A DNA stretch of 64,000 nucleotides, from IMG/VR virus record IMGVR_UViG_3300046777_001387, positions 19,697 through 83,696 of that record. One strand, given 5' to 3'. How positions within the stretch are numbered: position 1 is the stretch's first letter; each line of letters opens with the position of its first letter. A program made the position numbers and the translations under genes. Below are positions 949-44,116 of the stretch, piece after piece. This DNA is from a virus. The notes beneath the pieces are model-generated. The model searched no databases, had not been told where the DNA came from, and saw only the letters and a list, made by a program, of their open reading frames with translations.

Positions 949-949
949 T

Positions 950-2453: not shown

Positions 2454-2454
2454 A

Positions 2455-4518: not shown

Positions 4519-4519
4519 T

Positions 4520-7807: not shown

Positions 7808-7809
7808 AC

Positions 7810-17076: not shown

Positions 17077-19572
17077 ATGGCAAGTACAACAAATATTTCG
17101 CAAGTAGTTACCGCCAATACTTTTGGTCAGTGGAGAATCCAAACCAATCTTTTGGTTAATGATCTCAACGAGGTAACTCGCGGTGAGTTTGTGAAGCCTA
17201 CTGGTAACACAACATTTACTGTCGGAAGTCTAACTCTTGCAAACGCGACAGGAACCATGCTTACGGTTACTGCGGACGCTCGTATTTCTGGCAAGCTAAG
17301 TCTTAGAAACTACGAGCAGGACGGCGGTAACTCGTATTTGTATTCTCAGAGTCCAGATATTCAGTTCCAGAATGCTAACGTTATCTTTCAGGTTGCTGGA
17401 AATACTAGAACCAGATTCCTGTACAATAATACTTTCTCAAGCCTAGCCAACGTCAATGCCAATGGTTATATTGAGACCACTGGCACGTTTGCAAACAATG
17501 GCTTGATTATGAACGTCGCCAACGTACTTACGGTGCAAACTGCATCGGGTCAGGCGAACGTTAATGTTTCCACCAACGTAACTGTTTCAAGAAACACCAC
17601 GACGGGTAATCTGAGAGTTATTGATAGAGCCGATATTTCTTTGGCAAATATCGGCACTGCCTACGTCGACACTCTGTACGTTACTCAGCCGATTATTGCT
17701 CCTTCGGAAAGCGACACGAACCAGTATCGCCTGCGTGCTACATCGAATGATCGCGGCGACGGTTTCTTTGGTGTGAGACTGGGAACCTCGGCGAATGGTA
17801 ATGCTTGGATCAGATTCGACACTACTTCAGGCAACGTTTGGAGAGCAACTTCAAACAGCACCGAAGGAACTTATTACACGCTGCTGACTATGCAGAATGT
17901 GATAACTTCCACTGCATGCACTAGCACTTCTGATGTGGCTTCAGCTGCTTCTGTTAAGCAGGTGTATGACCTAGCGATCGCTGCCGCAGGATCTAACGAC
18001 GCTGCAAATACTGCCGCAAATACCGCAAGAGTTTCTGCTAACGGTGGAAGCTCTTTGGCAGCGCGCCAGCTAAACTTCGTCAATACTTCTACTGTATCGG
18101 TTACTGTAACTTCAGGCGCTGGTGCTGCTGCTGGTAATGCCAATATTGCTCTGAGTGTTATCGGTGCTATTGGTGCCCAAGGCGCGCAGGGCGCTCAGGG
18201 TGCCCAAGGCGCTACCGGTGCAGGAACTCAAGGTGCTCCCGGACCACAAGGTGCTGTTGGATTGCAAGGTCCACAAGGCGCTCTCGGACCGGGAACTCAA
18301 GGCGCTCCCGGACCACAAGGTGCTCAGGGCGCGCAGGGTGCTCGCGGCGGTGTGCCTTATGCATTCTCCAACTCAACCACCGATAGCGATCCTGGTAACG
18401 GAACAATTCGTTACAACAACAGCACAATTGGTTCTGTTTCTCAGTTGTTCATTGACTCTCTGGACAGAACAGGCGTAACTCAGACTGCATGGTTTAATTC
18501 TTGGGACGATAGTACGAACTCTGTAAAGGGATTTGTTACTATTAGAAGTGCCGTAGATTCTGGCGTAGTTACAAATGTGTTCAAGATCACTGGCGCTGTT
18601 ACTGCAGCAACTGGTTACCATAAGATTCCTGTGACCTATGTCAGCGGCAGTATCCCATCCAACGGATCTGAGTTGGTTATGGAGTTTTCTCCAGCCGGTG
18701 ATATTGGTCCCGGAACTCAAGGCGCTCCCGGACCACAAGGTGCTCAAGGTGCTCAAGGCGCACAAGGCGCAGTTGGTCCCGGAACTCAAGGTGCTCCCGG
18801 ACCTCAAGGTGCTGTTGGATCGCAAGGTCCACAAGGCGCTCTTGGAATAGGAGCGCAGGGTGCTGTGGGTGCCCAAGGAGCAGTTGGACAGGTTGGCGCG
18901 CAAGGTACACAAGGGGCTCGCGGCGCACAAGGTGAAAGAGGTGTTCAGGGTGCACAAGGAGCGCCAGGAACTCAAGGTGTACAAGGAGCAACTGGATTTG
19001 GTGCCCAAGGATACCAAGGCGTGCAAGGTGCTGTTGGTCAAACTGGTCCACAAGGTCAAATCGGTCAAACTGGTCCGCAAGGCGTGCAAGGTGCTGTTGG
19101 TCAAACTGGTCCACAAGGTCCACAAGGACAAACAGGAGCCTCTGGTCCAAGCACTGCAATTAATGCAACTCTAGTTTCCTCTGGAACTTATTACCTTGTT
19201 GGCGTTGGTGGATCTGGTACTAACCACACCCCAGCTGTCCAAGGAAGCATAACCTATAACGGTTCGAACGCCACGATTTATGCATATGACTTCGCTGCAA
19301 CTTCGGATGCCACGCTGAAGAACGTTATTGGTTCGATTGAAGATCCTCTGTCCAAACTACACGGCATTAATGGCGTTCGATTCTATTGGAAGTCTGACGT
19401 TGAGCAGATTAAGATGGAAGTCGGTCTGTTGGCGCAAGAAGTCGAAGCAGTTCTACCAAGTGCAGTTGTCCATAATAATGGAAACATGTACGTTCTCTAC
19501 GATAAGATTGTTCCGTTGCTAGTTGAAGCAATTAAAGAACTCGAAGCCAGAGTTAAGAAGTTAGAGGGGTAA
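17077..19572 (+). CDS. Collagen-like tail fibre with C-terminal S74 chaperone
   Basis: This is an 831-residue fibre. The N-terminal 110 residues (FGQWRIQTNLLVNDLNE, then beta strands) look like a docking domain seen in aquatic phage fibres. Residues about 320-363 hold one copy of the SAN..GS..LNFVNT..VxVTVTSG..GNANI module that is repeated seven times in the protein at 38593. Two collagen-like Gly-X-Gln tracts lie at about 367-425 and 545-690. The C-terminus is a peptidase S74 intramolecular chaperone: Ser743 and Lys748 in TSDATLK form the expected self-cleavage dyad, followed by VGLLAQEVEAVLP and a terminal coiled coil. In this family the domain trimerises the fibre and is then cut off. Confidence 0.88.
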   Translation: MASTTNISQVVTANTFGQWRIQTNLLVNDLNEVTRGEFVKPTGNTTFTVGSLTLANATGTMLTVTADARISGKLSLRNYEQDGGNSYLYSQSPDIQFQNANVIFQVAGNTRTRFLYNNTFSSLANVNANGYIETTGTFANNGLIMNVANVLTVQTASGQANVNVSTNVTVSRNTTTGNLRVIDRADISLANIGTAYVDTLYVTQPIIAPSESDTNQYRLRATSNDRGDGFFGVRLGTSANGNAWIRFDTTSGNVWRATSNSTEGTYYTLLTMQNVITSTACTSTSDVASAASVKQVYDLAIAAAGSNDAANTAANTARVSANGGSSLAARQLNFVNTSTVSVTVTSGAGAAAGNANIALSVIGAIGAQGAQGAQGAQGATGAGTQGAPGPQGAVGLQGPQGALGPGTQGAPGPQGAQGAQGARGGVPYAFSNSTTDSDPGNGTIRYNNSTIGSVSQLFIDSLDRTGVTQTAWFNSWDDSTNSVKGFVTIRSAVDSGVVTNVFKITGAVTAATGYHKIPVTYVSGSIPSNGSELVMEFSPAGDIGPGTQGAPGPQGAQGAQGAQGAVGPGTQGAPGPQGAVGSQGPQGALGIGAQGAVGAQGAVGQVGAQGTQGARGAQGERGVQGAQGAPGTQGVQGATGFGAQGYQGVQGAVGQTGPQGQIGQTGPQGVQGAVGQTGPQGPQGQTGASGPSTAINATLVSSGTYYLVGVGGSGTNHTPAVQGSITYNGSNATIYAYDFAATSDATLKNVIGSIEDPLSKLHGINGVRFYWKSDVEQIKMEVGLLAQEVEAVLPSAVVHNNGNMYVLYDKIVPLLVEAIKELEARVKKLEG
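18709..19140 (+). repeat. Collagen-like repeat tract in S74 fibre
   Basis: G-X-Y triplets with several GPQ, GPG and GTQ units (more Pro than in the other fibres) at about residues 545-690 of the 831-residue protein. A shorter tract of the same kind lies at 18175-18350. Both are interrupted by GAG or GPG phase shifts. Confidence 0.85.
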
Positions 19573-20205: not shown

Positions 20206-20538
20206 ATGGCATACGCAGAACTAACAATCGATCAAGGAACAACCTTTGAAACTTCCATTGATCTGACCAACGATGACGGAACCAGCGTTAATGTTGCGGG
20301 TTATGTCTTCAGCGCACAGGTTAGAAAATCATATTATTCTGTGAATCCTACTGCGAATATTACAGTTACTATCACTAATCCTGCTAGCGGCAATGTTAAG
20401 CTTTCGATTGATGCAGCCAATACGGCAAATATTAGGGCTGGAAGATACCTGTACGACGTAAAGATGACCAACACCACCGGTGTTACCACTAGAGTCATTG
20501 AGGGGATTATCACAGTAACTCCTCAGGTATCTAGATGA
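20206..20538 (+). CDS. Small beta-sandwich virion protein
   Basis: This 110-residue protein has the pattern LTIDQGTTFETSIDLTNDDG, then VFSAQVRKSY, GNVKLSIDAANTANIRAGRYLYDV and VIEGIITVTPQV. It is an Ig-like beta sandwich type that occurs next to collagen-like fibre genes in many phages, probably as a fibre adaptor. A plausible ribosome binding site (GAAG at 20199-20202) precedes the ATG. It overlaps the next gene by four bases (ATGA), so the two products are probably made in a fixed ratio. The biological role is not established. Confidence 0.75.
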   Translation: MAYAELTIDQGTTFETSIDLTNDDGTSVNVAGYVFSAQVRKSYYSVNPTANITVTITNPASGNVKLSIDAANTANIRAGRYLYDVKMTNTTGVTTRVIEGIITVTPQVSR

Positions 20539-22298
20539 AGATCGAGATTAAGAACCAAAATTCAGTTGGTTCTGTAAACGTCAATAACACTCCTGAAGTC
20601 GGCAAGGTCTCGATTAAGACCGGTGCTCCCGGACCCGCAGGCTCACAAGGTTCACAGGGCTTCCAAGGTACGCAAGGCTCTCAGGGTATTCAAGGCGCTC
20701 AAGGCGTCCAAGGCGCGCAGGGTGTCCAAGGTGCTCAAGGTGCACAAGGTGCACAAGGTTCGCAGGGACAGCAAGGTGCACAAGGCTTTCAAGGCGTTCA
20801 AGGCGCACAGGGTGTCCAAGGTGCTCAAGGTGCACAAGGTGCGCAAGGTGTACAAGGAGCTCAAGGCGTCCAAGGCGCGCAGGGTTCGCAAGGATTCCAA
20901 GGCGTTCAAGGAGCACAGGGAGTCCAAGGTGCGCAGGGAGTTCAAGGAGCTCAAGGTGCGCAAGGCGTTCAGGGTGCGCAGGGAGTTCAAGGAGCTCAAG
21001 GCGTTCAAGGTGCTACAGGAATTCAGGGCGCTCAAGGTGCACAGGGAGCACAAGGCGCTCAGGGTGTTCAAGGTGCTCAGGGATCACAGGGTTATCAAGG
21101 CGCTCTCAATAGATGGAAAGTCTTAACTGCAAACTATACGGCAGTAGACGGTGACCGTCTAATTGCAGACACTAGCTCTGGCACGTTTACTGTAACTCTA
21201 CCAGCCTCTCCTACTTCTGGTGATTATGTACAGATCTCAGACGGTAATGATTGGAGAACAAATAACCTTCTAGTCAATCCGAATGGATCAACTATTGAGG
21301 GTGTTTCGGATACACTGGCGCTCAATATCAAGGGTGTTACTGTAGAGTGTATCTACGACGGCACGACTTGGGAAGTTACAGCAACTACTGGTGCTCGTGG
21401 TGCGCAGGGTGCAATTGGCGCTCAAGGTGCCCAAGGATTCCAAGGTGTTCAGGGTACTGCCGGTGTTCTGGGTGGAGAAGGTCCGCAAGGTGCACAAGGT
21501 GTGCAGGGCGCCCAAGGATTCCAAGGCGTTCAAGGTACTGCAGGCGCGCAGGGTTCTCAGGGATATCAAGGTTCTCTAGAACGCTGGAAAGTTATAACTT
21601 CAACATATACTGCTTCTGATGGTGAAAGAATTCTTGCTGACACATCAGCAGGAAGCTTTACTCTAACTCTGCCAGCTGCTCCCACTGTTGGAACTTATGT
21701 GCAGATTAGTGATGGCGGCGACTGGTCAATCAACAACCTGACTGTAGGAAGAAACGGATCTTTAATTGAAGGTGTTGCTGATGATGTTCTTCTAGACTTT
21801 AAAAACGTCACAGTAGAGTTTATCTACGACGGCACGACTTGGGAAATTACTGCGACCACCGGAGCCAAAGGTTCTCAAGGATTCCAAGGCGTGCAGGGTG
21901 CAGTAGGTGCACAGGGCGCACAAGGCTCTCAAGGTCCACAAGGCGCTCAGGGCGCGCAAGGAATAATTGGCGCACAAGGCTCTCAAGGATTCCAAGGCGT
22001 ACAGGGTTCTGTCGGAAACCTGATTGAGAACCTATCAGTGGTGCAAACTGCCACTGATTATACCATGACTATCAATGATGATCTGGTTATTGGGACCAGC
22101 ACCAGCGAGATTTTTATTACTCTTCCAGACGTTGCAGCCAGAAACAAAGCCTATTATTTTCAAAATTTCGGCACTGGCTTCATGACTATTCAAACAGTTT
22201 CATCTCAGCTTATAAATAGTGATACCAAGCTAACATTACAGTTCAAGAATAGTTCTGTGAAGCTTATTTCGATAGGAACTAAGTTCCTTATCTTCTAG
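20535..22298 (+). CDS. Collagen-like fibre with three or four beta modules
   Basis: The 587-residue product has a short N-terminus (KIEIKNQNSVGSVNVNNTP) and then a Gly-X-Gln tract of about 160 residues. Two copies of a beta module of about 94 residues follow (pattern RWKV..YTA.DG..ILADTS.G.FT.TLPA.P..G.YVQI.DG), at nt 21111-21392 and 21582-21866. Short collagen-like linkers separate the modules. A diverged copy forms the C-terminus (about residues 498-587), lacking the IEG and IYDGTTWE blocks. The arrangement predicts a trimeric rod with beta knobs. One related module occurs in the giant protein at 31795. A late-promoter-like box at 22211 lies inside the 3' end. Confidence 0.85.
   Translation: MKIEIKNQNSVGSVNVNNTPEVGKVSIKTGAPGPAGSQGSQGFQGTQGSQGIQGAQGVQGAQGVQGAQGAQGAQGSQGQQGAQGFQGVQGAQGVQGAQGAQGAQGVQGAQGVQGAQGSQGFQGVQGAQGVQGAQGVQGAQGAQGVQGAQGVQGAQGVQGATGIQGAQGAQGAQGAQGVQGAQGSQGYQGALNRWKVLTANYTAVDGDRLIADTSSGTFTVTLPASPTSGDYVQISDGNDWRTNNLLVNPNGSTIEGVSDTLALNIKGVTVECIYDGTTWEVTATTGARGAQGAIGAQGAQGFQGVQGTAGVLGGEGPQGAQGVQGAQGFQGVQGTAGAQGSQGYQGSLERWKVITSTYTASDGERILADTSAGSFTLTLPAAPTVGTYVQISDGGDWSINNLTVGRNGSLIEGVADDVLLDFKNVTVEFIYDGTTWEITATTGAKGSQGFQGVQGAVGAQGAQGSQGPQGAQGAQGIIGAQGSQGFQGVQGSVGNLIENLSVVQTATDYTMTINDDLVIGTSTSEIFITLPDVAARNKAYYFQNFGTGFMTIQTVSSQLINSDTKLTLQFKNSSVKLISIGTKFLIF
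20626..21105 (+). repeat. Collagen-like Gly-X-Gln coding repeat
   Basis: A 9-base period dominates (GGT GCT/GTC CAA type codons for Gly-Ala-Gln, Gly-Val-Gln, Gly-Ser-Gln, Gly-Phe-Gln) inside the gene at 20535. Synonymous Gly, Ala and Gln codons alternate so that exact DNA repeats stay short. The first triplets (APGPAG) contain proline; later ones do not. Confidence 0.9.
21111..21392 (+). repeat. Beta module copy 1 (of the DGDRLIADTS family)
   Basis: This codes for about 94 residues beginning RWKVLTANYTA and ending IYDGTTWEVTATTG. It is homologous along its full length with 21582-21866 in the same gene and with 32055-32337 in the giant fibre. Confidence 0.85.
21582..21866 (+). repeat. Beta module copy 2
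   Basis: The second copy (RWKVITSTYTA to IYDGTTWEITATTG) keeps the IADTS-like, YVQISDG, NNL.V and IEG blocks of copy 1, with different codons, so duplication is not recent. Confidence 0.85.
22211..22218 (+). promoter_or_regulatory. Late promoter box TATAAATA inside fibre gene
   Basis: A perfect match to the T4 late box, 88 bases before the start at 22307 and inside the coding region of the gene at 20535. It would provide a transcript for the downstream small protein and the 1187-residue protein. Confidence 0.5.
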
Positions 22299-26247: not shown

Positions 26248-26424
26248 ATGACGCTCAATGAGATTCTAGTTATTCTTCAAAATAGAATGGTTGCTCTGAC
26301 CGAAGCCAGAAAGGGTGCTGTGGCATCCGGAGACCTTGAGAGTGTCGTTCGTATTGACGGCGACATTCTCACCACTCTAACAAGCATCGAAAGAATCGCA
26401 ACTACCATTAACGAAACCCAGTAA
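26248..26424 (+). CDS. 58-residue helical protein
   Basis: This is a short gene between two large ones: ATG at 26248, TAA at 26422-26424, with AAGGAG at 26235-26240 at good spacing. The product (NEILVILQNRMVALTEARK, then VASGDLESVVRIDGDILTT) is a predicted two-helix hairpin with an acidic second half. Small proteins of this pattern occur beside fibre genes in aquatic T4-like phages. An alternative ATG at 26243 meets a stop after two codons. The function is unknown. A small fibre chaperone or subunit would fit the context. Confidence 0.7.
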   Translation: MTLNEILVILQNRMVALTEARKGAVASGDLESVVRIDGDILTTLTSIERIATTINETQ

Positions 26425-26426
26425 TT

Positions 26427-27971
26427 ATGCCGACTAGTATTCAGGATTATTTGTCGAGCAGCCTTCCTTTAGGTCCGCAAGGATCTCAAGGAGTGCAAGG
26501 TGCTGTCGGTCTGCAAGGACCACAGGGTGCACAGGGAGTACAGGGAGAGATTGGCGCTCAGGGCGCTATTGGAGCACAAGGTGCAGTAGGAGCTCAGGGT
26601 GCAGCGGCAGCTGTAGGTGGTTCCACAACACAACTGCAGTATAACAACGCTGGAGTTTTTGCTGGCGCTGCTGGTCTGACAACTACTGGAACAGAACTGA
26701 ATATTGTCAGTGGCGCAAAGACTACTGATACACCTGCGCTGGATGTCAGTCAGACTTGGAGCAATGCTTCTGCGACATTTGCAGGATTTAGATTAAACGT
26801 CGCAGACTCTGCAAGCTCTTCTGGTTCATCGCTAACTGACTTACAAATTGGCGGAGCTAGCAAATTCAGAGTATATAAGTCAGGAACAATTGAACTTGGT
26901 GATATGAGCTCAACTGGCACATATTTACAGCTGACATCAACAGCTATTTCTACCGGCAGAGGAGCAAGTGCTGGTTATCCTCAATTAGATATTAATGTGC
27001 CAACAAACACCAATGGTTTGGGGCTTAATGGTCGCCTCAGAGTTTCTTCCAGTGCTATTAATGCCATGGGTCCGTTTTATCTTGCCATCAGTAATAATTA
27101 TGGGACCGAAGTTGCACTGCAGGCTGATGCTTCTAATATTTTCGCTCAGCGTAACGCGACCAATGCACAAACATTTAGAGTTTACAACACATTTACAGAT
27201 ACAGGTAATTATGAAAGGATTTCTTTTGGATGGGGGTCGAATGAATTTGTTATTGCTGCTGAATCTGCTGGTAGTGGAGTTACAAGACCATTTAAGCTTG
27301 TAAACAATAATGCCCAACAGTGGTTATCTATAGGTCAGGGGTGCATTAATGGTGGATATTCAAATGAAACTTCTGCTAGAAATGGTATAACCTTAAATGG
27401 TCCTGGATTTATAGGATATGCTTCAGGAGGTGAACATTGGTTTAGTGCTGGATCTGGTAGTGGTAGTATAAGTAGTCCACCATCAGCTGGTAATGCGGTT
27501 ATAATCTCTCCCTTTGCTGTAACTAATAATACATTGACGCACAGATTTATGCCATCTAAAAAGGATCGTGGTGGTGCATATACTGGTAATGGTCATAATC
27601 TTGAAGTTGCTGGTGGTGAAGCGTCTTCTTCAGGAACAAACAGCTATGATGGTGGGCATTTATACTTGGATGGTGGAAGAAAAACTGGCGCCAATGCCAA
27701 TGGTTCTGTTTTTATTGGAACTATTAGCACCGCTAACGTTAATATCAGTAGCGTAATAACTGTCACCGAATCTAGCCTAAGAGTTGGAACTTCGTCTTCT
27801 TCACTAGTGGGCTTCTGGAATGCAACTCCTATTGTACAGCCAACCACTGGAGTTGCAGCTGCCACGATTGTGACTAATAGCGGAACAGGCGTAAATAATG
27901 CAACAACCTTTGATGGCTACACATTAGCGCAGGTTGTCAAAGCTCTCAGAAATGCTGGACTATTGGCATAA
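26427..27971 (+). CDS. Collagen-like fibre/adhesin (514 aa)
   Basis: The N-terminus (TSIQDYLSSSLPLGPQG) is a tag shared with the genes at 27981 and 31795. A short Gly-X-Gln tract follows (about residues 16-62). Then come TQLQYNNAGVFAGAAGLTTTG, one copy of the DVSQTW.N....F.GFRLNV module (about 102-155) and one copy of the QRNATN.Q.FRVYNTFTD.GNYER module (about 240-295). The C-terminus has GFWNATPIVQPT followed by DGYTLAQVVKALRNAGLLA, a closing segment typical of phage collagen-like fibres and shared with the next gene. The DNA between about 27180 and 27720 is noticeably richer in A/T third positions than the structural genes. Probable receptor-binding fibre. Confidence 0.82.
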   Translation: MPTSIQDYLSSSLPLGPQGSQGVQGAVGLQGPQGAQGVQGEIGAQGAIGAQGAVGAQGAAAAVGGSTTQLQYNNAGVFAGAAGLTTTGTELNIVSGAKTTDTPALDVSQTWSNASATFAGFRLNVADSASSSGSSLTDLQIGGASKFRVYKSGTIELGDMSSTGTYLQLTSTAISTGRGASAGYPQLDINVPTNTNGLGLNGRLRVSSSAINAMGPFYLAISNNYGTEVALQADASNIFAQRNATNAQTFRVYNTFTDTGNYERISFGWGSNEFVIAAESAGSGVTRPFKLVNNNAQQWLSIGQGCINGGYSNETSARNGITLNGPGFIGYASGGEHWFSAGSGSGSISSPPSAGNAVIISPFAVTNNTLTHRFMPSKKDRGGAYTGNGHNLEVAGGEASSSGTNSYDGGHLYLDGGRKTGANANGSVFIGTISTANVNISSVITVTESSLRVGTSSSSLVGFWNATPIVQPTTGVAAATIVTNSGTGVNNATTFDGYTLAQVVKALRNAGLLA

Positions 27972-27980
27972 GGTAATTAA

Positions 27981-30900
27981 ATGGCTGTAAGCATTCAAAC
28001 AATCACACAAAGCAGTTTGCCTGCAGGACCACAAGGTGTGCAGGGTCCTCAAGGACCAGCGGGAGCATCTTCTACCCCCGGTGGTAATAACACAGAACTA
28101 CAGTACAATAATAACGGTGTATTTGCCGGCGCTTCTGGTCTGACCACTACAGGGACAGAACTGAACATTGCTTCTGGCATCAAGACGCTGAATACTTCTC
28201 CGGCAATAAACGTTTCTCAAACTTGGGATAATTCTGGAAACACATTCACTGCAATCAGATTAAATGTCACTGACACTGCAAGCGCCACTGGTTCTTTGCT
28301 ATTTGATGGTAGGGTGGATAATGCCAGCGTGTTTACCGTCGACAAATCTGGTGGCGTTTATTCTTTGCTTGGAGCAATTTTAGGCAATAACAAATGGTCA
28401 TTAGCACAAGCTAGATTTGCTGGAAATGCTTCTTATTATATTGGTTGGGCAAGCACGAGCACAGTCAGTAACTCCACCACACCAGATACTCGATTGTATC
28501 GCGATGAAGCGTATACCATAGCCCAGCGAAATGCCACAAATCCTCAGAGTTTTCGAGTTTATAAAACCTTCACAGATGCAGATAATTATGAAAGAGGTTT
28601 CCTGCGTTGGAACGGTAATATTTTTGAAGTTGGTGACGAGGGAGCCGGCTCAGGTGTTTCTAGACAGCTGCGCCTAGTTGCAGCAAATGTCAGTTTCTCT
28701 ACCAATATCGAGGGCGGAAATTCCAGAACAAATCCAAACCTAATCAATTCGGCGTTCGCAATCACAAATACTGGTGCGTTTAACGCTAGCAATATGATCG
28801 GGTTGGTTAGTCGAGGTGAAAGTGCATATAATGCAGTTGGAGTTATTGGGTATGCTGCTAACTCCAGTACTTGGACATATAATACAACTGGATTAATGGG
28901 AGTCGCTGTTCGAAACTCTACAAGATCAGCGGTTGGCGTTTATGGTGCGATACAAAGCACCAATATTTTACCTGATTATGAGCACTATTCCCTATCTGCT
29001 GCTATTTTTGATAATGGTGGTATAACAGGCGCAAATATTATTGAAGGCAGAAGTTCGGGGACATCTAGATTTTTGGTTAGTGGAGTTGGTGCAGTTACTG
29101 CAAATAATGGCGCGATTACTGCTTCTACACCAGCATTAAACTTATTACAAGAATGGAATAATTCCGGCGTTGCGTTCACTGGATTAAAATTTAATGCTAT
29201 AGATACAGCAAGCGCAAGTGGTTCACTTTTATTAGACGTGCAGCTTGGTGGTACTAGCAGATTTAAGGTTTCTCGCACTGGCGGAATTGCTACTGGTAAT
29301 CCTTCTGGTTATAATCTAGATCTTGGTTTTACAAACAATAACTACATAACTGGTTTTTATCAAACTTCTAATCGTGGATCAATTGAGTTCGGTGCGGGTG
29401 CTGGTACAGATCTTGTTTGTAGAGCAGGAGCCTCAGGAGGAGGCACTGGAACATTTAAGATAACTGCTTATGGTGGAGTTACAGAAGTTGTCAATGATGG
29501 TAACCCCCAAATATTTCGCATCTATAACACTTGGACAAACTCATCAGACCAATTCGAACGTGGACATATTCGATGGAACTCTAACGTTCTGCAAATTGGA
29601 ACTGAGAAGGGTTCGGTCTCTGGAACGGCTCGACCACTAGAACTTCAAACTGATGGGATCACCAGAGCTACTATAGAAGCTGCAGGCACATTCAGAACTA
29701 ACACACAACCAGTATATGTCAACGCCACGTATAACACTGGAATTTCTTCTAGTGCTGATGGATATGTTCTCTCAATTTCTACCAGATACGGTACTCATAT
29801 CGACACTTCGCTTGGGCGTATCAATCTTTATTCCATTGTAAAATTTGGTGCTGCCAATTATTCACCCGGAATAACTGTTGCTCCATATGCGACTGGTCTA
29901 TCTACAGGCGATCCGATTTATGGTGGTCTATTAAACGCTTCTTCATCTACCTCTAGTCTATGGCTTTATGGTAAATATGGTGGAACTTATGCAGCTTCTA
30001 CTGGATACCATAATGGAACAGGAATTTCCATTTGGTGTGGTTTTGGTGCACAACCAACGGATGCTAATGCCAATGGCGGAAATGCTGGCAACTTCGATGT
30101 TTGGCTAAATGCTGGTGGAGCTGGTACAGGAACAGGTGTTTCTGGAAATCGTGGAAAGCTGCGTGTACTTAATGATTCTACTGACCTTGAAGTGTTCTCT
30201 GTTAACCAGCTCGGTAATGTTGTAATTACATCGGCTATTACTGGCGATAACGGAACTCTGACTTCTTCTTCACCAATTTTAGATTTATCACAAACATGGA
30301 ATGATGCAGGAACCGCATTCGTTGGTTTGCGATTTAATGTTGTTCGTACTGCTTATGGCGCGAGCAGCAGATTACTGTCTCTTACGGCTGATTCGGGCGA
30401 TCGCTTTTTTGTAACCAGCACAGGAGAAGCCACACTTCTTGGAACTCTGACCGCAGGAGCGTTTACAACCACAGGAACAGTTACTGCCGGAACAGTACTC
30501 GTAACTGGAAGCTCAAATTATGTTGCATTAAACGGCAGTTCATTTTTGCAGCTTTCTGATGGAACTTATCCTGCTCGAATGCAGGCTGATGGAAACGGGT
30601 ATAATGTCTCTTTGCGAAATGGAACGAATCCACACAGTTTCTTAGTATACAACACATTTGTCAACTCTACCAACTATGAGCGCGGATTCCTTAAGTGGGA
30701 CAGCAACACCTTCAAGATCGGCACTGAGAAAGGCAGCGGCGGAGGGACATCGCGTGCGCTGGAGCTGCAGACAGATGGTGTGACGCGAGCAGTGTTTTCT
30801 ACCGCACCTTCAGGCACAATTCCCATTGCTCGCTTTACTGGCAATTCTGGGGCGCATATTTCTATCGAAAATACTAGCGCCACAAGCTCTGGTAATGGTG

Positions 30901-31382
30901 CGTTTTGTTTTCTTGTCTCAAATCCCCCAAGCGGCGCAATGGCAAACGGCGATCGTATTGGTGGGTTTGTTTTCGCTGGCAATTCTGCCACCGGCGTCTC
31001 TAGAAACAGCGCGCTGATTGCTGCCTTTGCCACGCAGGCATGGAACGACACCACGCCGCAGGCGGGAGCCGAGCTTCGGTTTGAGACCACTAATAACGGT
31101 ACTATAACTAGAACGGTGAAGCTAACGTTGGGCAGCGCCGCAACCTTTGCTGACGCGGTCAACATCGCAGTCGGCACCTCTACCGGCACAAAGATTGCTA
31201 CAGCAACCTCCCAGAAGCTGGGCTTCTGGAATGCAACTCCAGTAGTTCAACCAACAACAGCAGTAACAGGAGCAGAACGTGTTGCCGGTGGTGGCGCAAC
31301 AGTAACTGCCACTGATACATTCGATGGATACACAATCGCACAAGTAGTCGCAGCACTGCGTAGTGCTGGACTATTAGCTTAA
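27981..31382 (+). CDS. Collagen-tagged modular fibre/adhesin (1133 aa)
   Basis: This gene begins with the same tag type (VSIQTITQSSLPAGPQG) and a short collagen-like stretch, then TELQYNNNGVFAGASGLTTTG as in the upstream gene. It carries three copies of the SQTW/RLNV module (starting near nt 28192, 29125 and 30268) and three of the FRVY-TF-YERG..RW.SN module (near 28516, 29497 and 30616). It ends with GFWNATPVVQPT and IAQVVAALRSAGLLA. It looks like a triplicated version of its upstream neighbour. The segment 30715-31190 has clearly more G/C-ending codons than the rest of the gene, suggesting that it was acquired separately. A receptor-binding role is inferred. Confidence 0.82.
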   Translation: MAVSIQTITQSSLPAGPQGVQGPQGPAGASSTPGGNNTELQYNNNGVFAGASGLTTTGTELNIASGIKTLNTSPAINVSQTWDNSGNTFTAIRLNVTDTASATGSLLFDGRVDNASVFTVDKSGGVYSLLGAILGNNKWSLAQARFAGNASYYIGWASTSTVSNSTTPDTRLYRDEAYTIAQRNATNPQSFRVYKTFTDADNYERGFLRWNGNIFEVGDEGAGSGVSRQLRLVAANVSFSTNIEGGNSRTNPNLINSAFAITNTGAFNASNMIGLVSRGESAYNAVGVIGYAANSSTWTYNTTGLMGVAVRNSTRSAVGVYGAIQSTNILPDYEHYSLSAAIFDNGGITGANIIEGRSSGTSRFLVSGVGAVTANNGAITASTPALNLLQEWNNSGVAFTGLKFNAIDTASASGSLLLDVQLGGTSRFKVSRTGGIATGNPSGYNLDLGFTNNNYITGFYQTSNRGSIEFGAGAGTDLVCRAGASGGGTGTFKITAYGGVTEVVNDGNPQIFRIYNTWTNSSDQFERGHIRWNSNVLQIGTEKGSVSGTARPLELQTDGITRATIEAAGTFRTNTQPVYVNATYNTGISSSADGYVLSISTRYGTHIDTSLGRINLYSIVKFGAANYSPGITVAPYATGLSTGDPIYGGLLNASSSTSSLWLYGKYGGTYAASTGYHNGTGISIWCGFGAQPTDANANGGNAGNFDVWLNAGGAGTGTGVSGNRGKLRVLNDSTDLEVFSVNQLGNVVITSAITGDNGTLTSSSPILDLSQTWNDAGTAFVGLRFNVVRTAYGASSRLLSLTADSGDRFFVTSTGEATLLGTLTAGAFTTTGTVTAGTVLVTGSSNYVALNGSSFLQLSDGTYPARMQADGNGYNVSLRNGTNPHSFLVYNTFVNSTNYERGFLKWDSNTFKIGTEKGSGGGTSRALELQTDGVTRAVFSTAPSGTIPIARFTGNSGAHISIENTSATSSGNGAFCFLVSNPPSGAMANGDRIGGFVFAGNSATGVSRNSALIAAFATQAWNDTTPQAGAELRFETTNNGTITRTVKLTLGSAATFADAVNIAVGTSTGTKIATATSQKLGFWNATPVVQPTTAVTGAERVAGGGATVTATDTFDGYTIAQVVAALRSAGLLA

Positions 31383-31392
31383 GGAGATTTTA

Positions 31393-31728
31393 ATGGCTAC
31401 GTTTAATCTAAGAATCACTGGCGTCTCGGCTTATCCAACAGTGGATAATCTAGAGAATGTTGTATTTGATATTCACTGGGCATATGAAGGAACAGACGGC
31501 ACCTTCTCAACTGCAATGTCTGGCACTACTATGGTTCCAGCCCCAAGTGCAGAAAATTTTGTTCCCTTCGATCAGCTGACAGAACAGATGGTCAAAGACT
31601 GGGTTATTGCCTTCACAGACGCCCAGACTTTCACCAATTTTGAGAATCTAATGACTGATTGGCTTGCTGCCCAGCATAATCCTCCCGTCGTGTATCCTCC
31701 ACTCCCTTGGGCGACGGCAAACACTTAA
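31393..31728 (+). CDS. Small conserved phage protein (PLPW C-terminus)
   Basis: The protein has 111 residues: MATFNLRITGVSAYP, then VVFDIHWAYEGTDGTF, FVPFDQLTEQMVKDWVIAF and a C-terminus with NPPVVYPPLPW. This order (beta sheet, central Phe-Pro-Phe with a Thr-Glu-X-X-Val-X-X-Trp helix, proline-rich end) is a recurring small protein family of aquatic phages located beside tail fibre genes. Its function is unknown to me. AAGGAG at 31381-31386 is a strong ribosome site. The gene is the last before the terminator hairpin at 31749, so it closes the transcription unit of the upstream fibres. Confidence 0.78.
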   Translation: MATFNLRITGVSAYPTVDNLENVVFDIHWAYEGTDGTFSTAMSGTTMVPAPSAENFVPFDQLTEQMVKDWVIAFTDAQTFTNFENLMTDWLAAQHNPPVVYPPLPWATANT

Positions 31729-31739
31729 TTGATCGATCG

Positions 31740-31747
31740 CATAAATA
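31740..31747 (+). promoter_or_regulatory. Late promoter box CATAAATA before the giant fibre
   Basis: T4-type late box, 48 bases before the ATG at 31795. It overlaps the upstream side of a perfect palindrome, so transcription started here would begin inside the hairpin. Confidence 0.7.
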
Positions 31748-31748
31748 A

Positions 31749-31778
31749 AGGGGGTCTGATCAGACCCCCTAGATCTTT
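31749..31778 (+). terminator. Terminator hairpin before the giant fibre
   Basis: A perfect 22-base palindrome at 31749-31770 (half AGGGGGTCTGA) is followed after AGATC by TTTT at 31775-31778. It would end the transcript from the upstream fibre genes. It is not a simple terminator because the late box lies directly before it. Confidence 0.75.
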
Positions 31779-31794
31779 TAAGAGTTAAAAAAGA

Positions 31795-34700
31795 ATGTCT
31801 ATTACCCTCGAAGATATCCTCCAAAGTAGCCTTCCCGTCGGTCCACAGGGCATTCAGGGAGCTCAAGGCAATCAAGGCGTTCAAGGTTCTCAAGGCAATC
31901 AAGGAGTTCAAGGTTCTCAAGGTCCCCAAGGCGCACAAGGTGTGCAAGGAGCCCAAGGCGTTCAGGGATCGCAGGGTGTACAAGGTTCGCAAGGAGTTCA
32001 AGGCGCACAAGGTGTGCAAGGAGCCCAAGGCTACCAAGGATTTGATGGTCTTAAGGGATGGACTTTAAAGACTTCTAATTATAACGCTTCTAGTAATGAT
32101 CGCATTATTGCGGATTCTAGCGGCGGCTCTTTTGTAATCTATCTTCCTACTACTCCTCCTGTTGGCTCATATGTTCAAATTACTGATGGAGCTAACTGGA
32201 ATCTCAATAGTGTCACGGTAAATTCTAGCGGAACAATTATCGAATCTGGTTTCGATGAGGTTATTCTAGATGCTGCCGGCATAACCACTGAGTTCATTTA
32301 TACTGGAACAAATTGGCAAGTCACCTCTACGCTAGGTGCAATGGGTTCCCAAGGATTTCAAGGCACTCAAGGAGCAACTGGTGCACAAGGCTCTCCCGGT
32401 CCTCAAGGTGCGCAAGGTCTCACGGGCGATAGATATGCCACTACCAGTTCTAGCACAAATACTATCGGAACTGGTTCTAAGACATTCACAGTAGAAACTG
32501 GACTTTCTTACACTCCTGGTCAAGCTGTAAAAGTTTATTATGATATTTCTAATTATATGGACGGCACAGTCGTCTCATATAATTCTGGGACTGGAAGTCT
32601 GGTATTAAGTATTTCGGCAGTGACCGGAACAGGAACATATAGTTCTTGGGTTGTTAATCTTTCCGCTATTACCGGCGCACAAGGTTCACAAGGTATTCAA
32701 GGCGTCACTGGTGCACAAGGCGTTCAAGGTTCTATCGGAGCACAGGGCGCACAGGGTTCTCAAGGAACACAAGGTCCCCAAGGTGCAGCAGGTGTGCAAG
32801 GCGCTCAGGGTGCATCGGGTGCACAAGGTGCTCAGGGTGCTGCTGGTACTCAAGGTGCCCAAGGTTCTGTGGGCGCACAAGGTGCTCAAGGATCAGTGGG
32901 TGCTCAGGGTGCTCAGGGTGCTGCTGGGACTCAAGGCGCACAGGGGACGACAGGAGCACAAGGAGCGCAAGGTTCTGCTGGAGTTCAGGGTGCACAAGGT
33001 GCTCAGGGTATTCAAGGCGATCAAGGCGCAGTTGGTCCACAAGGTTCTGCTGGTCCACAAGGTGTGCAAGGTTCAACTGGAGCGCAAGGTGTACAGGGAT
33101 CTGTAGGAGCTCAAGGCGCGCAAGGTTCAGAAGGTGCCCAAGGATCTGTTGGTGCGCAAGGTGTGCAAGGAACACAAGGTCCTCAAGGTGCAACAGGAGC
33201 GCAAGGTTCCGTTGGTGCTACCGGCAGTGAGGGTGCTGTCGGCGCTCAGGGTGCACAAGGTTCTGTTGGAGCACAGGGTTCTGTCGGAGCTCAAGGTGTT
33301 CAGGGATCTGTTGGAGCTCAAGGTGCGCAAGGTTCTGTTGGTGCACAGGGTGAACAAGGTGTCACCGGTGCGCAAGGTTCTGTTGGTGCACAAGGATCAG
33401 TCGGAACTCAAGGAGCACAAGGTGCTGCTGGAGCTCAAGGTTCTGTTGGTGCACAAGGATCTGTTGGAGCGCAAGGCGCACAGGGTGCTCAAGGTGCTGC
33501 TGGAGTGCAAGGCGCTCAAGGTGCAGTAGGTGCGCAAGGTACAGTTGGAACCCAAGGCGCACAGGGTGCTGTAGGTACTCAAGGATCTGCTGGAGCACAG
33601 GGTGCTCAAGGATCAGTTGGTCCACAAGGAGCGCAAGGCGCTACAGGAGCCACGGGCACTCAAGGTGCACAGGGCGCTTCTGGTGTACAAGGTGCTCAAG
33701 GATCTGTCGGAGCACAAGGTTCTGTCGGAGCACAAGGTGCAATTGGTCCGCAAGGCGCACAAGGTTCCACTGGAACAACTGGTTCTCAGGGTCCACAAGG
33801 AGCCCAAGGTGCCGCAGGTGTGCAAGGCGCTCAAGGTTCTGCCGGCGCACAGGGATCAGTAGGTGCTCAAGGCTCAGTTGGTCCGCAAGGTGCACAAGGT
33901 GCTACTGGAACAACTGGAGCACAGGGATCAGTTGGCGCGCAAGGTGCCCAAGGTGCTAATGGAGTTCAGGGCGCGCAAGGTGCTGTCGGAGTTCAGGGTG
34001 CACAGGGTGCTACTGGAACAACTGGAGCGCAGGGATCAGTTGGTCCACAAGGTGCACAGGGTTCTGTTGGAGCTTCTGGCGCACAGGGATCAGTTGGTGC
34101 TCAAGGTGCAGTAGGTGCACAAGGAGCACAAGGCGCACAAGGCGCTACCGGTGTACAAGGTGCACAGGGTTCTGTTGGAACACAAGGATCAGTCGGAGCA
34201 CAAGGATCAGTTGGTCCGCAAGGCGCTCAAGGATCTATCGGTGTACAGGGAGCACAAGGTGCTCAAGGCGCAGCTGGTGTTCAAGGCGCACAAGGCGCTA
34301 CTGGAGTTCAAGGTGCTCAAGGTGCAGTTGGTCCGCAAGGTGCACAGGGTGCTAATGGAGTTCAAGGTGCTCAAGGCTCAGTTGGTCCACAAGGCGCACA
34401 GGGCGCTGCTGGTGTTCAGGGTGCAGTAGGCACTCAAGGTGCGCAAGGTGCTTCTGGAGTTCAAGGCTCAGTCGGTCCACAAGGAGCACAGGGTGCTGCT
34501 GGAGTTCAGGGTGCTCAAGGTGCGGTGGGCGTACAAGGTGCAATTGGTCCACAAGGCGCACAAGGTGCTGCCGGAGTTCAAGGTGCACAGGGTGCTGCTG
34601 GTGTGCAGGGAGCACAAGGTGCTGCCGGTGTTCAGGGTGCTAATGGAGTTCAAGGTGCACAGGGTGCCATAGGCGTTCAAGGTGCACAAGGTGCTAATGG

Positions 34701-35883
34701 AGTGCAAGGCGCTCAAGGTGCCATAGGCGTTCAAGGTGCACAAGGTGCTGCTGGATTCCAAGGTGCCCAAGGCTCAGTCGGTCCACAAGGCGCACAAGGC
34801 GCACAAGGTGCTGGTGGAGTTCAAGGTGCGCAAGGAGCACAAGGTGCTGCTGGAGTCCAAGGTGCTCAGGGAGCACAAGGCGCTAATGGAGTTCAAGGTG
34901 CACAAGGTGCTGCTGGGATACAGGGAGCACAAGGTGCTGCTGGGGTACAAGGCGCTCAAGGAGCACAAGGTGCTGCTGGCGTACAAGGCTCAGTAGGCGC
35001 GCAAGGTGCAATTGGTCCACAAGGCGCACAAGGTGCTGGTGGAGTTCAAGGTGCGCAAGGAGCACAAGGTGCTGCTGGAGTTCAAGGTGCCCAAGGTGCT
35101 CAGGGAGCAGTAGGAGTCCAAGGCGCTCAGGGTGCTGCTGGTATACAAGGTGCTCAAGGAGCACAAGGCGCTAATGGAGTTCAAGGTGCTCAGGGAGCAC
35201 AAGGTGCTGTGGGCGTTCAAGGCGCGCAAGGTGCTGCTGGAGTCCAAGGCGCTCAGGGAGCACAGGGTGCAGTAGGTGTTCAAGGCGCGCAGGGTGCGCA
35301 AGGTGCCGCAGGTGTTCAGGGCGCTCAAGGTGCTCAAGGTGCAGTAGGTGTGCAAGGTGCTCAAGGAGCGCAGGGCGCACAAGGAGCACAGGGTGCAGTA
35401 GGTGTTCAAGGCGCTCAAGGTGCTCAAGGTGCTGCTGGCGCACAAGGACAATCTTTTGTGGGGGCTCAAGGAGCGCAGGGCGCACAAGGAGCACAAGGAG
35501 CGCAGGGTTCTGTCGGAGCACAAGGTGCCCAAGGATCTCAGGGTCCTGCAACTTTCCGAGTTAGCTCCACAACCTCTATCGCATCTCCTCTAGCATGGAA
35601 TAGTGACAACTTTGAAATGTATGCAGCAACTGCCCAAGCAGTTGCTCTGACCATTAGTGCTGATGCTGGAACGCCAACTAATGGTCGCAGAATTATCTTC
35701 AGATTCAAGGACAATGGAACTGCAAGATCTCTAAACTGGACAACTGGAACGTCCAAATCATTCAGAGCAGTTGGTGCAACTCTCCCAACCACAACTGTAG
35801 TCAATAAGACCGTATACATTGGTTGCATATATAACGCTGCAGACGACAGATGGGATGCTATTGCAGTATCGCAAGAAGCTTAA
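31795..35883 (+). CDS. Giant collagen-like fibre (1362 aa)
   Basis: The N-terminus ([18 protein letters not shown]) is the shared fibre tag. Collagen-like tract 1 runs to about residue 82. One copy of the beta module found in the protein at 20535 follows (nt 32055-32337), then a short G-X-Y linker and a beta segment. From codon 294 to about 1219 every third residue is Gly without a break, about 308 G-X-Y triplets, mostly GAQ, GVQ, GAA and GSV. The first interruption is GQSFV. The last 110 residues ([21 protein letters not shown], then [20 protein letters not shown]) form a beta cap common at the end of phage collagen-like fibres. The long tract is almost uncharged. Probably a trimeric triple-helical long fibre. 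Own late promoter at 31740. Confidence 0.88.
32055..32337 (+). repeat. Beta module copy in the giant fibre
   Basis: This copy ([11 protein letters not shown] to [15 protein letters not shown]) is more distant from the two at 21 kb but in the same order of blocks. It is likewise flanked on both sides by collagen-like triplets. Confidence 0.8.
32674..35448 (+). repeat. Giant uninterrupted collagen-like coding repeat
   Basis: The tract extends over about 308 consecutive G-X-Y codon triplets in phase. A higher-order 9-residue pattern (GxxGAQGAQ and GAAGVQGAQ) becomes more regular toward the 3' end (34,800-35,440). Only a handful of acidic residues (SEG, GDQ, GEQ) and no basic ones are seen across the tract. 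Confidence 0.95.
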
Positions 35884-38592: not shown

Positions 38593-41500
38593 ATGGCAGA
38601 CTTCCCAGCTAATCCCACTCTCGGTATTATATTCAAAACTACTGATAACACTCAGTGGTATTTTGATGGCTATTCTTGGAAAGCAGGAACCTTCGCGCCC
38701 AATCAGGCACTGATTCACTTCGCCACTTCTGCGAATAGTGGATCTACCGTAAATGCCAACTCTCTAAATTTCATTAATACTCAGTATATTCTGGCAAACG
38801 TCCAGCCGGGACTCACAGGCAACGCGAATATATCCTTCGCTTTGCAGTATCCAGTTATTGCTAATAACGAATTGATCGTCACTGCTAACGGTATTAATTT
38901 CGTCAATAATAACTCGGTTTTCGTCAACGTTGGTACTGGTATTAACGGCAACGCTAACGTTCAGTTCGGAATCACTATTCCTACTGCAGTAAACAGTGGA
39001 ACTGTAGTTATTGCCAACAGCTTCAACTACACCAATACAAATACAGTTAATGTTACTGTTTCTTCTGGTATTGCTGGCAATGCCAATATTGCTTTTGAAA
39101 GCTATATGGTGGCTAGTGCCAATGGAGGAAGTGGAGTTAAGACAAACTCTATAAACTTCGTAAATTCTCCTAGTGTGATTGTGAATGTGTCTCCTGATCC
39201 TGCAGGAAACGCTAATGTAGGATTCTCCAGCTTCTTCCCCACATCGGCTAATAGCGGATCTACAGTAACTTCTAACGGAATCAACTTCGTTAATACTTCT
39301 AGTGTTCAGGTTAACGTTCAATCTGGCTTAACTGGTAATGCAAACATTTCGCTGGAAAGCTTTTTCCCTACATCGGCTAACAGTGGATCCACGATAACAT
39401 CCAACGGTATTAACTTCATAAACACCAGAAGCGTTCAGGTAAACGTTCAATCTGGGTTGACTGGAAATGCGAATATCTCTTTCCAGAGCTTCTTTCCAGT
39501 TTCAGCCAATACTGGAAGCACCGTAACAGCCAATGGAATCAACTTTACGAATACAGAGTCTATTCTGGTTGCGGTTCAGACTGGACAAACTGGCAACGCG
39601 AATATTTCTTTCTCTGTTGCTACTACCAGAGCAATCAACGCGGACGCCACTCTAGGTGGTACAAACTATTACGTCGTCGGTGTAGCTGCTACTGGAGTCA
39701 ATTCAGTTCCCAATGCGAATACTGGATTTTATTTCAATGGTAATACGGCAACAATACTAGGCAGCCTTGGTGTGGGAGTCACACCCACACAAAAACTAGA
39801 GGTTAATCTAACTTCTGGTGGAACAAATATGTTCCTAGCTTCTACCACACAAACTCCATCTATTGGTGGCGGTGGTCAAGGACTTAGGTTTGGTTGGAAT
39901 ACAACTTCTGCTGGACCAACGATAAGACTGCTGCATGGTGGGTCATATAGCGACGCAGGATTATTATTCTCTACTTGGACTTCTGCAGCTGAAGTTGAGC
40001 GCATGCGCCTCGACACTGCTGGCAATCTTGGTATTGGTGCATCACCCTCATATCCATTGGATGTTGTTAAAAATGGTGTTCAAGTCGGCAGCACTACAGC
40101 ATATTTGATTACTAGATTTAGCGATGCGACGCCAAATAAAGGTATACACCTTGGGTATGATAGCGGTTCTCAAACTGGTATTGTTCTCAGCGCCAGTTCA
40201 GCGGCTTCCAGTAATCTAGCTTTCTGGAATTTTGACAGTGTTTCAACCGGTTGGGCAGAGCGCGCAAGAATCACTAGCACTGGCAGACTGGGCATCGGCA
40301 CTACTAATCCAGCATACAGATTGCAAGTAAGCGATTCCTCATCCAACTTTGTTTCTGTTATTTCTGGTACTAGCGCGACAGCAGGACTTCTTCTCGGCGA
40401 CACCGACAGTGCAACTGTTGGTCGTGTTGAGTACGAAAATCTTAATAATGCGATGACAATGTTTACTAATGGTTCTGAGCGTATAAGGATAACATCAGGC
40501 GGTAATGTTGGAGTTGGTGTCAGCCCTTCTGTAAGATTGCATGTTTTGACTGGCAACTCAGGCGAGGGAGAGGTTCGTGTAGAGAACTCCAGTGCAGTTC
40601 ATTCTTCAGGAATTAATTTCTGGACTGGCACACAGAGAGGATTTGTTGGTTGGAGAGGAACCAGCTCAACTTCTCCATTCAATGTCAGTGGAATGTATCT
40701 GATCAATTTCGACAACTCTAGCCTGATTCTCGGCACGAATAATCTTGAAAGAATGCGTATCGATTCTAATGGTAATGTGGGAATTGGATCCACTCCATCT
40801 GCTTCGTATAGACTACAGATTACAAGTTCCGGTACAGTTAATGGTATTTTGGTTACTACAGGCACTGGTGGTTATCCACAAGTTACTGGAACTGATGGCA
40901 CAGTTACGCAGTTTGGAGTATATGCTGCCAATGGAATTGGTTATGCCGGAACGCAAAGCAACCATCCTTACGTTCTACTAACCAACAATACTGAAAGAAT
41001 TCGTGTTGATACAAGTGGTAATATGGGTGTAGGTATCTCGCCAGCAGCAAAACTTGATGTGCTTGGCGTGATCAGATCGACTAGTCCCGATTCCGGAACA
41101 GTTCTAGATGCGACTGCCTTGAACGGCGGAACATCTTATATTGACTCTTTCCGATCTACTGGAAGTGCGTTAGTGTTCCGCACAAATAGCTCTGGATCTG
41201 GAGTTTCTGAGAGAGTCAGAATAGATAGCAGCGGCAATGTTGGTATTGGACTGTCGCCATCAACAAATCTCGATGTTCGAAGCGTCATACGAAGCACCAG
41301 CCCTGACAGTGGAACTCTGCTTTCCGTTCAAGCCACAAACGGAGGAGCAACATACATCGATGCCTTTAGAACTGCTGGAGCCACACTGTATCTAAGAGTT
41401 ACGAACGGATCTGGAACGCTATTAGAAAGATTTACTGTTACGCAAAACGGTATAACTGTCACTGGAGGCGTTGGTGTTACACAGGGAATTTATGCTAACG

Positions 41501-42471
41501 CTACTGACATAACTGCAGCCAGAACTTCTACGGCAGGCGCATATTATTTTGGTACTGGTGGATCAAAGTATCTATTTTTCGACGGAAGCAGCTACTTGTT
41601 TGGCGATACTGGAGTTTCTATCACTTCAACAACTCTTAATGCTACAGCGATCGCAGCTTCTTCTTTAACATTAACAACAGCATTGAGTGTTGCTAATGGT
41701 GGAACTGCATCCACCACTAGAAAAGCTGCCTCGTCTAGCATAGCCAACTTTGGACAGCTAGAAAATCACGGTACATATACTGATTTTAATTCAGTGCAGC
41801 AATGGGGCGGCACATATGTACAAGGTAGCACTAACGGACCGGGAATTCCTAGTGCAGGACAGTATTACCAGTGCATGTATTCAATCGGAGCGGACTATGA
41901 TTGGGCAGGGGGTAATGCTTATGCTATGCAAATGGCTATTCCAAGAACTCCAGTTGGTGGTGCGCCATATCTGTCTGTAAGATTTAAAGAGGGTGGTGGT
42001 GCTACTTCTGGGTGGGGAAGCTGGTCGAAGATTCATGCAGGATATGCTGACACAGCGGGTTCTGTTGCCACTAGCAGTAATGTGCAGATGAGTTCTCTTG
42101 GAGTCAATACGGCTGCGTCAGGAACTGCTGGAGAAATACGCGCCACCAATAACATCACTGCGTACTATTCTGATATGCGCCTCAAAAAGTATTTGGGTGC
42201 TATTGAAAACCCATTAGAAAAATTGATGTCGCTTAAGGGTTTCTATTATACAGGTAATGAAGAGGCAGGGAAGCTAGGTTACAATACAGAGACTCCAGAG
42301 GTTGGTGTTTCTGCTCAGGATGTTCTGGAAGTGCTTCCTGAGATCGTAAAGCCTGCTCCTATTGACGATAAATACTATACTCTAGATTATTCCAGACTAG
42401 TTCCTTTATTGATTGAAGCTATCAAGGAACAGCAGAATCAAATAAACGAGCTAAAAGCCCGTTTGCACTGA
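38593..42471 (+). CDS. Modular fibre with tandem repeats and S74 chaperone (1292 aa)
   Basis: The N-terminus (LGIIFKTTDNTQWYFDGYSW) is a small beta domain often found at fibre bases. Seven tandem modules of about 43 residues follow (nt 38728-39615; pattern SANSGSTV..NGINFVNT.SV.VNVQSGLTGNANI). Next comes a long region with seven copies of (M)RIDS.GN.GIG.SP...L.V between 39757 and 41275. The C-terminus is a peptidase S74 chaperone: Ser1193 and Lys1198 in YSDMRLKK, then GVSAQDVLEVLPEIV and a coiled coil. This domain trimerises the fibre and is then released by self-cleavage. A GATAAATA late box lies 28 bases before the ATG. Probably a distal fibre or tailspike. Confidence 0.88.
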   Translation: MADFPANPTLGIIFKTTDNTQWYFDGYSWKAGTFAPNQALIHFATSANSGSTVNANSLNFINTQYILANVQPGLTGNANISFALQYPVIANNELIVTANGINFVNNNSVFVNVGTGINGNANVQFGITIPTAVNSGTVVIANSFNYTNTNTVNVTVSSGIAGNANIAFESYMVASANGGSGVKTNSINFVNSPSVIVNVSPDPAGNANVGFSSFFPTSANSGSTVTSNGINFVNTSSVQVNVQSGLTGNANISLESFFPTSANSGSTITSNGINFINTRSVQVNVQSGLTGNANISFQSFFPVSANTGSTVTANGINFTNTESILVAVQTGQTGNANISFSVATTRAINADATLGGTNYYVVGVAATGVNSVPNANTGFYFNGNTATILGSLGVGVTPTQKLEVNLTSGGTNMFLASTTQTPSIGGGGQGLRFGWNTTSAGPTIRLLHGGSYSDAGLLFSTWTSAAEVERMRLDTAGNLGIGASPSYPLDVVKNGVQVGSTTAYLITRFSDATPNKGIHLGYDSGSQTGIVLSASSAASSNLAFWNFDSVSTGWAERARITSTGRLGIGTTNPAYRLQVSDSSSNFVSVISGTSATAGLLLGDTDSATVGRVEYENLNNAMTMFTNGSERIRITSGGNVGVGVSPSVRLHVLTGNSGEGEVRVENSSAVHSSGINFWTGTQRGFVGWRGTSSTSPFNVSGMYLINFDNSSLILGTNNLERMRIDSNGNVGIGSTPSASYRLQITSSGTVNGILVTTGTGGYPQVTGTDGTVTQFGVYAANGIGYAGTQSNHPYVLLTNNTERIRVDTSGNMGVGISPAAKLDVLGVIRSTSPDSGTVLDATALNGGTSYIDSFRSTGSALVFRTNSSGSGVSERVRIDSSGNVGIGLSPSTNLDVRSVIRSTSPDSGTLLSVQATNGGATYIDAFRTAGATLYLRVTNGSGTLLERFTVTQNGITVTGGVGVTQGIYANATDITAARTSTAGAYYFGTGGSKYLFFDGSSYLFGDTGVSITSTTLNATAIAASSLTLTTALSVANGGTASTTRKAASSSIANFGQLENHGTYTDFNSVQQWGGTYVQGSTNGPGIPSAGQYYQCMYSIGADYDWAGGNAYAMQMAIPRTPVGGAPYLSVRFKEGGGATSGWGSWSKIHAGYADTAGSVATSSNVQMSSLGVNTAASGTAGEIRATNNITAYYSDMRLKKYLGAIENPLEKLMSLKGFYYTGNEEAGKLGYNTETPEVGVSAQDVLEVLPEIVKPAPIDDKYYTLDYSRLVPLLIEAIKEQQNQINELKARLH
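38728..39615 (+). repeat. Seven tandem 43-residue fibre modules
   Basis: Successive copies share SAN.GS.V..NGINFVNT..V.VNV..G..GNANI.F. Copies 5 and 6 are nearly identical, copies 1-4 diverge more, and one further copy occurs in another gene at 18034-18165. Confidence 0.9.
39757..41275 (+). repeat. Seven dispersed RIDSSGNVGIG..P repeats
   Basis: Units with GN.G(I/V)G.SP...(L)V start near 39757, 40021, 40282, 40501, 40771, 41017 and 41234, usually preceded by ER(M/I)R(I/L)D. They are separated by 60-90 variable residues. The motif is a common phage fibre repeat and marks repeated beta segments along the shaft. Confidence 0.85.
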
Positions 42472-44112: not shown

Positions 44113-44116
44113 CTAG

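Follow-up and report, generated by a model that had tools for sequence, protein, structure and literature searches.

A short N-terminal peptide common to three collagen-type fibre proteins of an uncultured T4-like virus, a candidate attachment tag

Introduction

Attachment to the virion through the N-terminus has been described for fibritin (PMC3797505), for the tail of the adenovirus fibre (PMC8156859) and for the anchor of CBA120 TSP4 (PMC10253068). In adenoviruses, a short conserved N-terminal peptide (FNPVYPY) docks trimeric fibres of different length on one capsid site, and some of these viruses with two fibre genes put either the long or the short fibre on each vertex (PMC8156859). A short N-terminus which fixes a fibre to the particle is a familiar idea for phages, and the tag described here is most likely a new and unusually short example.

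The stretch of DNA which we have analyzed (the window) has 64,000 nucleotides, bases 19697-83696 of an 83,696-base IMG/VR record of an uncultured virus. A preliminary description, based on the letters of this stretch, had noticed a similar start in three neighbouring fibre genes, called here A, B and C, and had suggested that it might dock all three at the same virion site.

Results

Gene content and gene order are T4-like across the window. A long fibre block (17077-42471) comes after the baseplate wedge genes (2455-9417). Head-tail connector genes (43348-45753) are found 3' of this block, then terminase, sheath, portal, scaffold and major capsid. The fibre locus is flanked by gp6/7/8-like genes on one side and by gp13/14/15-like genes on the other. 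Since it lies between the wedge and the head-tail connector genes, it occupies the place of gp9-gp10-gp11-gp12-wac in the T4 order. The capsid gene has 71-74% nucleotide identity to those of Stenotrophomonas phage DLP6 and cyanophages. Two small genes are found beside A, B and C. A 58-codon open reading frame at 26249-26424 (MTLNEILVILQNRMVALTEARKG...), under the threshold of our ORF list, stops immediately 5' of A, and the gene at 31393-31728, between B and C, codes for a DUF7936 / phrog_7802 protein of unknown function.

The preliminary description was right about the three starts: Related peptides do open A at 26427, B at 27981 and C at 31795. The tag has 19 residues in each case, MPTSIQDYLSSSLPLGPQG in A (26427..26483, +), MAVSIQTITQSSLPAGPQG in B (27981..28037, +) and a third version in C (31795..31851, +). 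The register is exact in the three proteins: M1, S11 S12 L13 P14 x G16 P17 Q18 G19. The last residues, GPQG, are already within the Gly-X-Y collagen repeat, which begins at G16. The search pattern first suggested, [ST]I.{2}[YIL].{1,2}SSLP.GPQG, matches A and B and misses C; M.{9}SSLP.G.QG fits all six members of the family now known. Any two of the three tags have 10-11 of 18 identical residues after M1 (11-12/19 for the whole tag), and no other pair has more than 6/18 when the 78 distinct N-termini of ORFs in this virus record are compared.

The coding DNA of the tag is 53-60% identical among A, B and C, and only 3-4 of the 10-11 conserved residues use the same codon. The DNA 5' of the three genes is unrelated (12-32% identity), which rules out a common upstream sequence as a recombination site. 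With diverged codons and unrelated upstream DNA, a recent copying of the tag is excluded. The amino acids have stayed the same although the codons for most of the conserved positions have changed: The codon comparison demonstrates that purifying selection acts on the tag peptide.

The bodies of the three fibres are quite different in size. Gene A (26427..27971, +) codes for a 514 aa fibre with the tag, 15 Gly-X-Y triplets (residues 16-60, 26472..26606, +), a beta-type body and a promiscuous C-terminal module. Gene B (27981..31382, +) codes for a 1133 aa paralogue of A with the tag, 5 triplets (residues 16-30, 28026..28070, +), repeated shaft modules and a C-terminal module as in A. Gene C (31795..35883, +) codes for a 1362 aa collagen whisker. 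Its tag is followed by 25 triplets, a small domain also found in the product of the gene at 20535, a main run of 309 uninterrupted triplets (residues 294-1220, 32674..35454, +) and a C-terminal tip unlike that of A and B. Collagen residues amount to 1065 of 1362 in C, 45 in A and 15 in B. Collagen rises 0.286 nm per residue; the predicted length of C is about 300 nm, and that of the collagen in A and B a few nm. The Pfam collagen model (PF01391) scores above its cut-off in A and C and is the only Pfam match there; neither Pfam nor PHROG searches gave a match for B, with its five triplets, and the PfN N-terminal domain (PF08400) was found by Pfam in none of the three. An AlphaFold2 model of A, built with three sequences, has a pLDDT of 32.5.

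It had been said that the three proteins differ completely after the tag. This holds for their sizes and for C, which has nothing but the tag and the collagen repeat in common with the others, but A and B are paralogues, with 39% identity along 299 aa, 32% along 198 aa and 56% in the last 68 aa. DNA repeats between A and B are visible, and B has additional copies of the shaft module of A. A common tag in A and B is therefore partly expected by descent, and the informative comparison is that of A/B with C. The C-terminal module of A (GFWNATP...TFDGYTLAQVVKALRNAGLLA, 27765..27968, +) and B (31176..31379, +) is found in 80 other viral loci, with many different N-termini; neither the tag nor a collagen run is present in any of the 80. 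In IMG/VR and in cyanophages, relatives of B only have short body motifs in common with it, and the two cyanophage proteins examined have other N-termini.

The tag is rare. A scan of 2.9 million IMG/VR contigs with a pattern including the start codon and SSLPxGPQG found it in one other contig, L004, as the start of a collagen fibre of 2063 aa; the end of this protein has matches to tail-spike and tail-fibre families. Looser patterns added L033 and L057 (MPISVRTLIASSLPQGVQGVQG), with large collagen-type proteins within fibre clusters. Three other IMG/VR contigs are thus the only ones with the same register. The total is six genes in four viral contigs, and each tag opens a large collagen-type protein; our reading of this rare tag draws on these six sequences. 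IMG/VR scans without the start-codon constraint gave no further protein with the tag at its N-terminus. The preliminary description had named a tag on unrelated non-fibre proteins as its refuting condition; none was found, as far as exact degenerate patterns can detect one. Other IMG/VR matches (L072 and L075) look like chance, since neither opens a collagen-type or other fibre reading frame. The only two matches in GTDB genomes (L073 and L074) also look like chance; neither opens a fibre reading frame. Searches with tblastn of single tags or short peptides against 50,697 phage records gave no match at E 10; such short repetitive queries have little power. A special case is L020, a 2227-aa jumbo-phage collagen fibre with an internal SSLPVGPQG near residue 906, directly before collagen. 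It cannot be an N-terminal plug, and this single match may be due to chance.

One of the tagged contigs, L033 (48 kb, genome G002), is syntenic with the window, and most of its proteins from baseplate to capsid are 55-83% identical. Its counterpart of C has a tag with 16/19 residues identical to that of C, followed by an unrelated body of 1504 aa. The orthologue of A in G002 has 47% identity over residues 80-514 of A and contains neither tag nor collagen. It (L066 4482-5768) starts about where the tag and collagen of A end, and overlaps the stop codon of the preceding gene. The comparison suggests that the tag is dispensable for this body, or that the gene has decayed, or that it docks otherwise. 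A conserved N-terminus with exchanged bodies is seen in three comparisons: in C and its G002 counterpart, in A/B as compared with C, and in the C-terminal module of A and B, which other viruses carry on other N-termini. Since the body of C has been replaced in G002, and the C-terminal module is found on other N-termini, the N-terminus is the end specific to the phage lineage, and the rest is exchangeable. Judged by these sequences, the tag behaves as a phage-side module.

Other N-terminal classes are also present in these fibre clusters. One of them, roughly FPxNPxxxxxFxxxxxxWxYDGxxW, opens fibre genes in the window (38593-42471), in G002 (L065 11964-15194) and twice in G003 (L068 6919-9804; L069 7806-13625), and has weak matches in cyanophages such as P-SSM2. 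Another, a DPDPxxNRIxxxNxA-like block, is common to four proteins of one G003 fibre cluster (L068 3222-5642; L069 3572-5347 and 5356-7596; and the gene at 1-3178). One and the same fibre cluster can thus contain several classes of tag.

The T4 late-promoter core, ATAAATA, is found 13 times in the window, always on the + strand. Several copies are placed 32-55 nt 5' of the start codon of a late gene, where a late promoter of the T4 type would be expected; sites include 17004, 31740, 38558, 42472, 49571, 51787 and 53935. The one at 31740..31747 (+), CATAAATA, resembles the T4 late promoter (TATAAATA) and lies 55 nt 5' of C. A perfect palindrome (31749..31770, +), which looks like a terminator stem, is found between the 31393-31728 gene and C. 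No copy of ATAAATA lies directly 5' of A or B, and the expression of C may thus be separate from theirs.

Discussion

Our preferred reading is that the 19-residue N-terminus is probably a minimal plug by which collagen-type fibres of a T4-like myovirus are attached to the virion. The best evidence is the conservation of the tag in syntenic C genes with unrelated bodies, which argues for a role on the virion side. Of the claims made in the preliminary description, that of a docking peptide remains the best-supported reading: The tag is at the very N-terminus, in a fixed register, in four contigs, is kept on unrelated C bodies and was found on no non-fibre protein in our pattern scans. The sequence comparisons establish the tag itself, its register, the selection on the peptide and its modular behaviour; they make an attachment role likely. 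A conserved N-terminus with an exchangeable remainder is, by analogy, how the virion-attachment ends of fibritin, adenovirus fibres and tailspikes behave (PMC3797505, PMC8156859, PMC11414711, PMC10253068).

In the arrangement we propose, three copies of the tag would begin each fibre, presumably a trimer. Each copy would form a short capped helix at about residues 4-9, an SSLP turn and the Gly-X-Y repeat from G16. In an AlphaFold2 prediction from the six tags in alignment, residues 5-9 form a helix (pLDDT about 75), S/T/D at position 4 fits a helix cap and P14 fits a helix end; an amphipathic face of the helix is not significant (permutation p = 0.11). The copies would dock on a baseplate or neck protein, and everything 3' of the tag would be free to change. 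The virus would have placed one such plug on two related knob fibres (A and B) and on a very long collagen whisker (C). The plug might perhaps also nucleate the collagen triple helix.

This last function could also be the main one. The tag would then be an N-terminal cap which registers and nucleates the triple helix, by means of a short trimeric helix and the SSLP turn, and the fibres would be attached to the virion elsewhere. We consider this possible, although rather improbable. In all six proteins the tag continues directly, from G16, as Gly-X-Y, L020 has its internal copy directly before collagen, and the only tagless homologue, the A orthologue in G002, has no collagen either. In addition, phage collagens place trimeric coiled coils (PCoil) beside the collagen rod (PMC3368898). 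On the other hand, the tag is confined to residue 1 onward in 6/6 members, and B retains it with only five triplets. The collagen runs of two control fibre genes of the block, 17077..19572 (+) and 20535..22298 (+, in the same cluster), and the internal runs of C begin without a tag. These other runs rule out a general collagen lead-in as the whole story.

Two other explanations appear much less probable. Collagen and beta fibres often require dedicated chaperones, and the tag might be a signal for such a chaperone, or for the order of assembly, rather than a structural contact in the finished virion. A 110-aa neighbour gene (20206-20538) does match the PHROG family 'L-shaped tail fiber protein assembly', but nothing links it directly to the tag, and the usual target of tail-fibre chaperones is the C-terminal or folding domain; we find this explanation hard to credit. 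Mere common descent, in which a tandem duplication gave A and B, recombination gave C the same start and the tag has no present function, is if anything slightly less probable. It accounts for A and B, whose common tag is expected in paralogues. Nevertheless, the codons of the tag have largely diverged while its residues were kept, and the tag has persisted in the G002 counterpart of C, where the whole body has been replaced.

The attachment reading does not imply that the three fibres are equivalent. That an interchangeable plug loads three unlike fibres on equivalent sites, giving particles with mixed fibres, is a tentative idea which we consider doubtful. The tags of the paralogues (11-12/19) differ more among themselves than the orthologous C tags (16/19), a pattern which hints at gene-specific specialisation. 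This divergence, the tagless A orthologue in G002, and the promoter-like site and terminator-like palindrome of C all weigh against simple interchangeability. Distinct roles of the fibres are as likely as competition for one site, because of the difference between a whisker of about 300 nm and a few nm of collagen, and because C has an apparent late promoter of its own.

In any case, the tag is a candidate attachment peptide of collagen-type phage fibres which is very short, precisely defined and sufficiently rare to be traced. The two orthologous loci, which have this tag in front of unrelated bodies, are a natural test pair. If such plugs are interchangeable, they would explain how a phage can gain new fibres while its baseplate keeps its design.

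In function, the adenovirus fibre tail comes closest to the idea of a shared site, though in an unrelated virus and with an unrelated sequence; the docking site is known there, while here there are three fibre genes and a collagen rod. The branched tailspike complexes of Ackermannviridae (CBA120, S117) and of Alcyoneusvirus RaK2 also combine several receptor-binding proteins with conserved N-terminal assembly modules and variable C-terminal parts (PMC11414711, PMC10253068). Their modules are folded domains (anchor, XD and TD), each at a defined place within the complex, unlike the 19-residue peptide common to three proteins found here. Prophage side tail fibres with the PfN-PCoil-Col-PfC architecture have the same succession of an N-terminal attachment part, a trimeric helical element, a collagen rod and a C-terminal domain (PMC3368898), but PfN has about 134 residues and the tag has 19. 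T4 fibritin (wac) has a conserved N-terminus, an exchangeable C-terminal part and a similar genome neighbourhood before gp13 (PMC3797505). The attachment domain of fibritin has about 50 aa, binds to the neck and continues in a coiled-coil shaft, whereas here a 19-residue tag leads directly into collagen.
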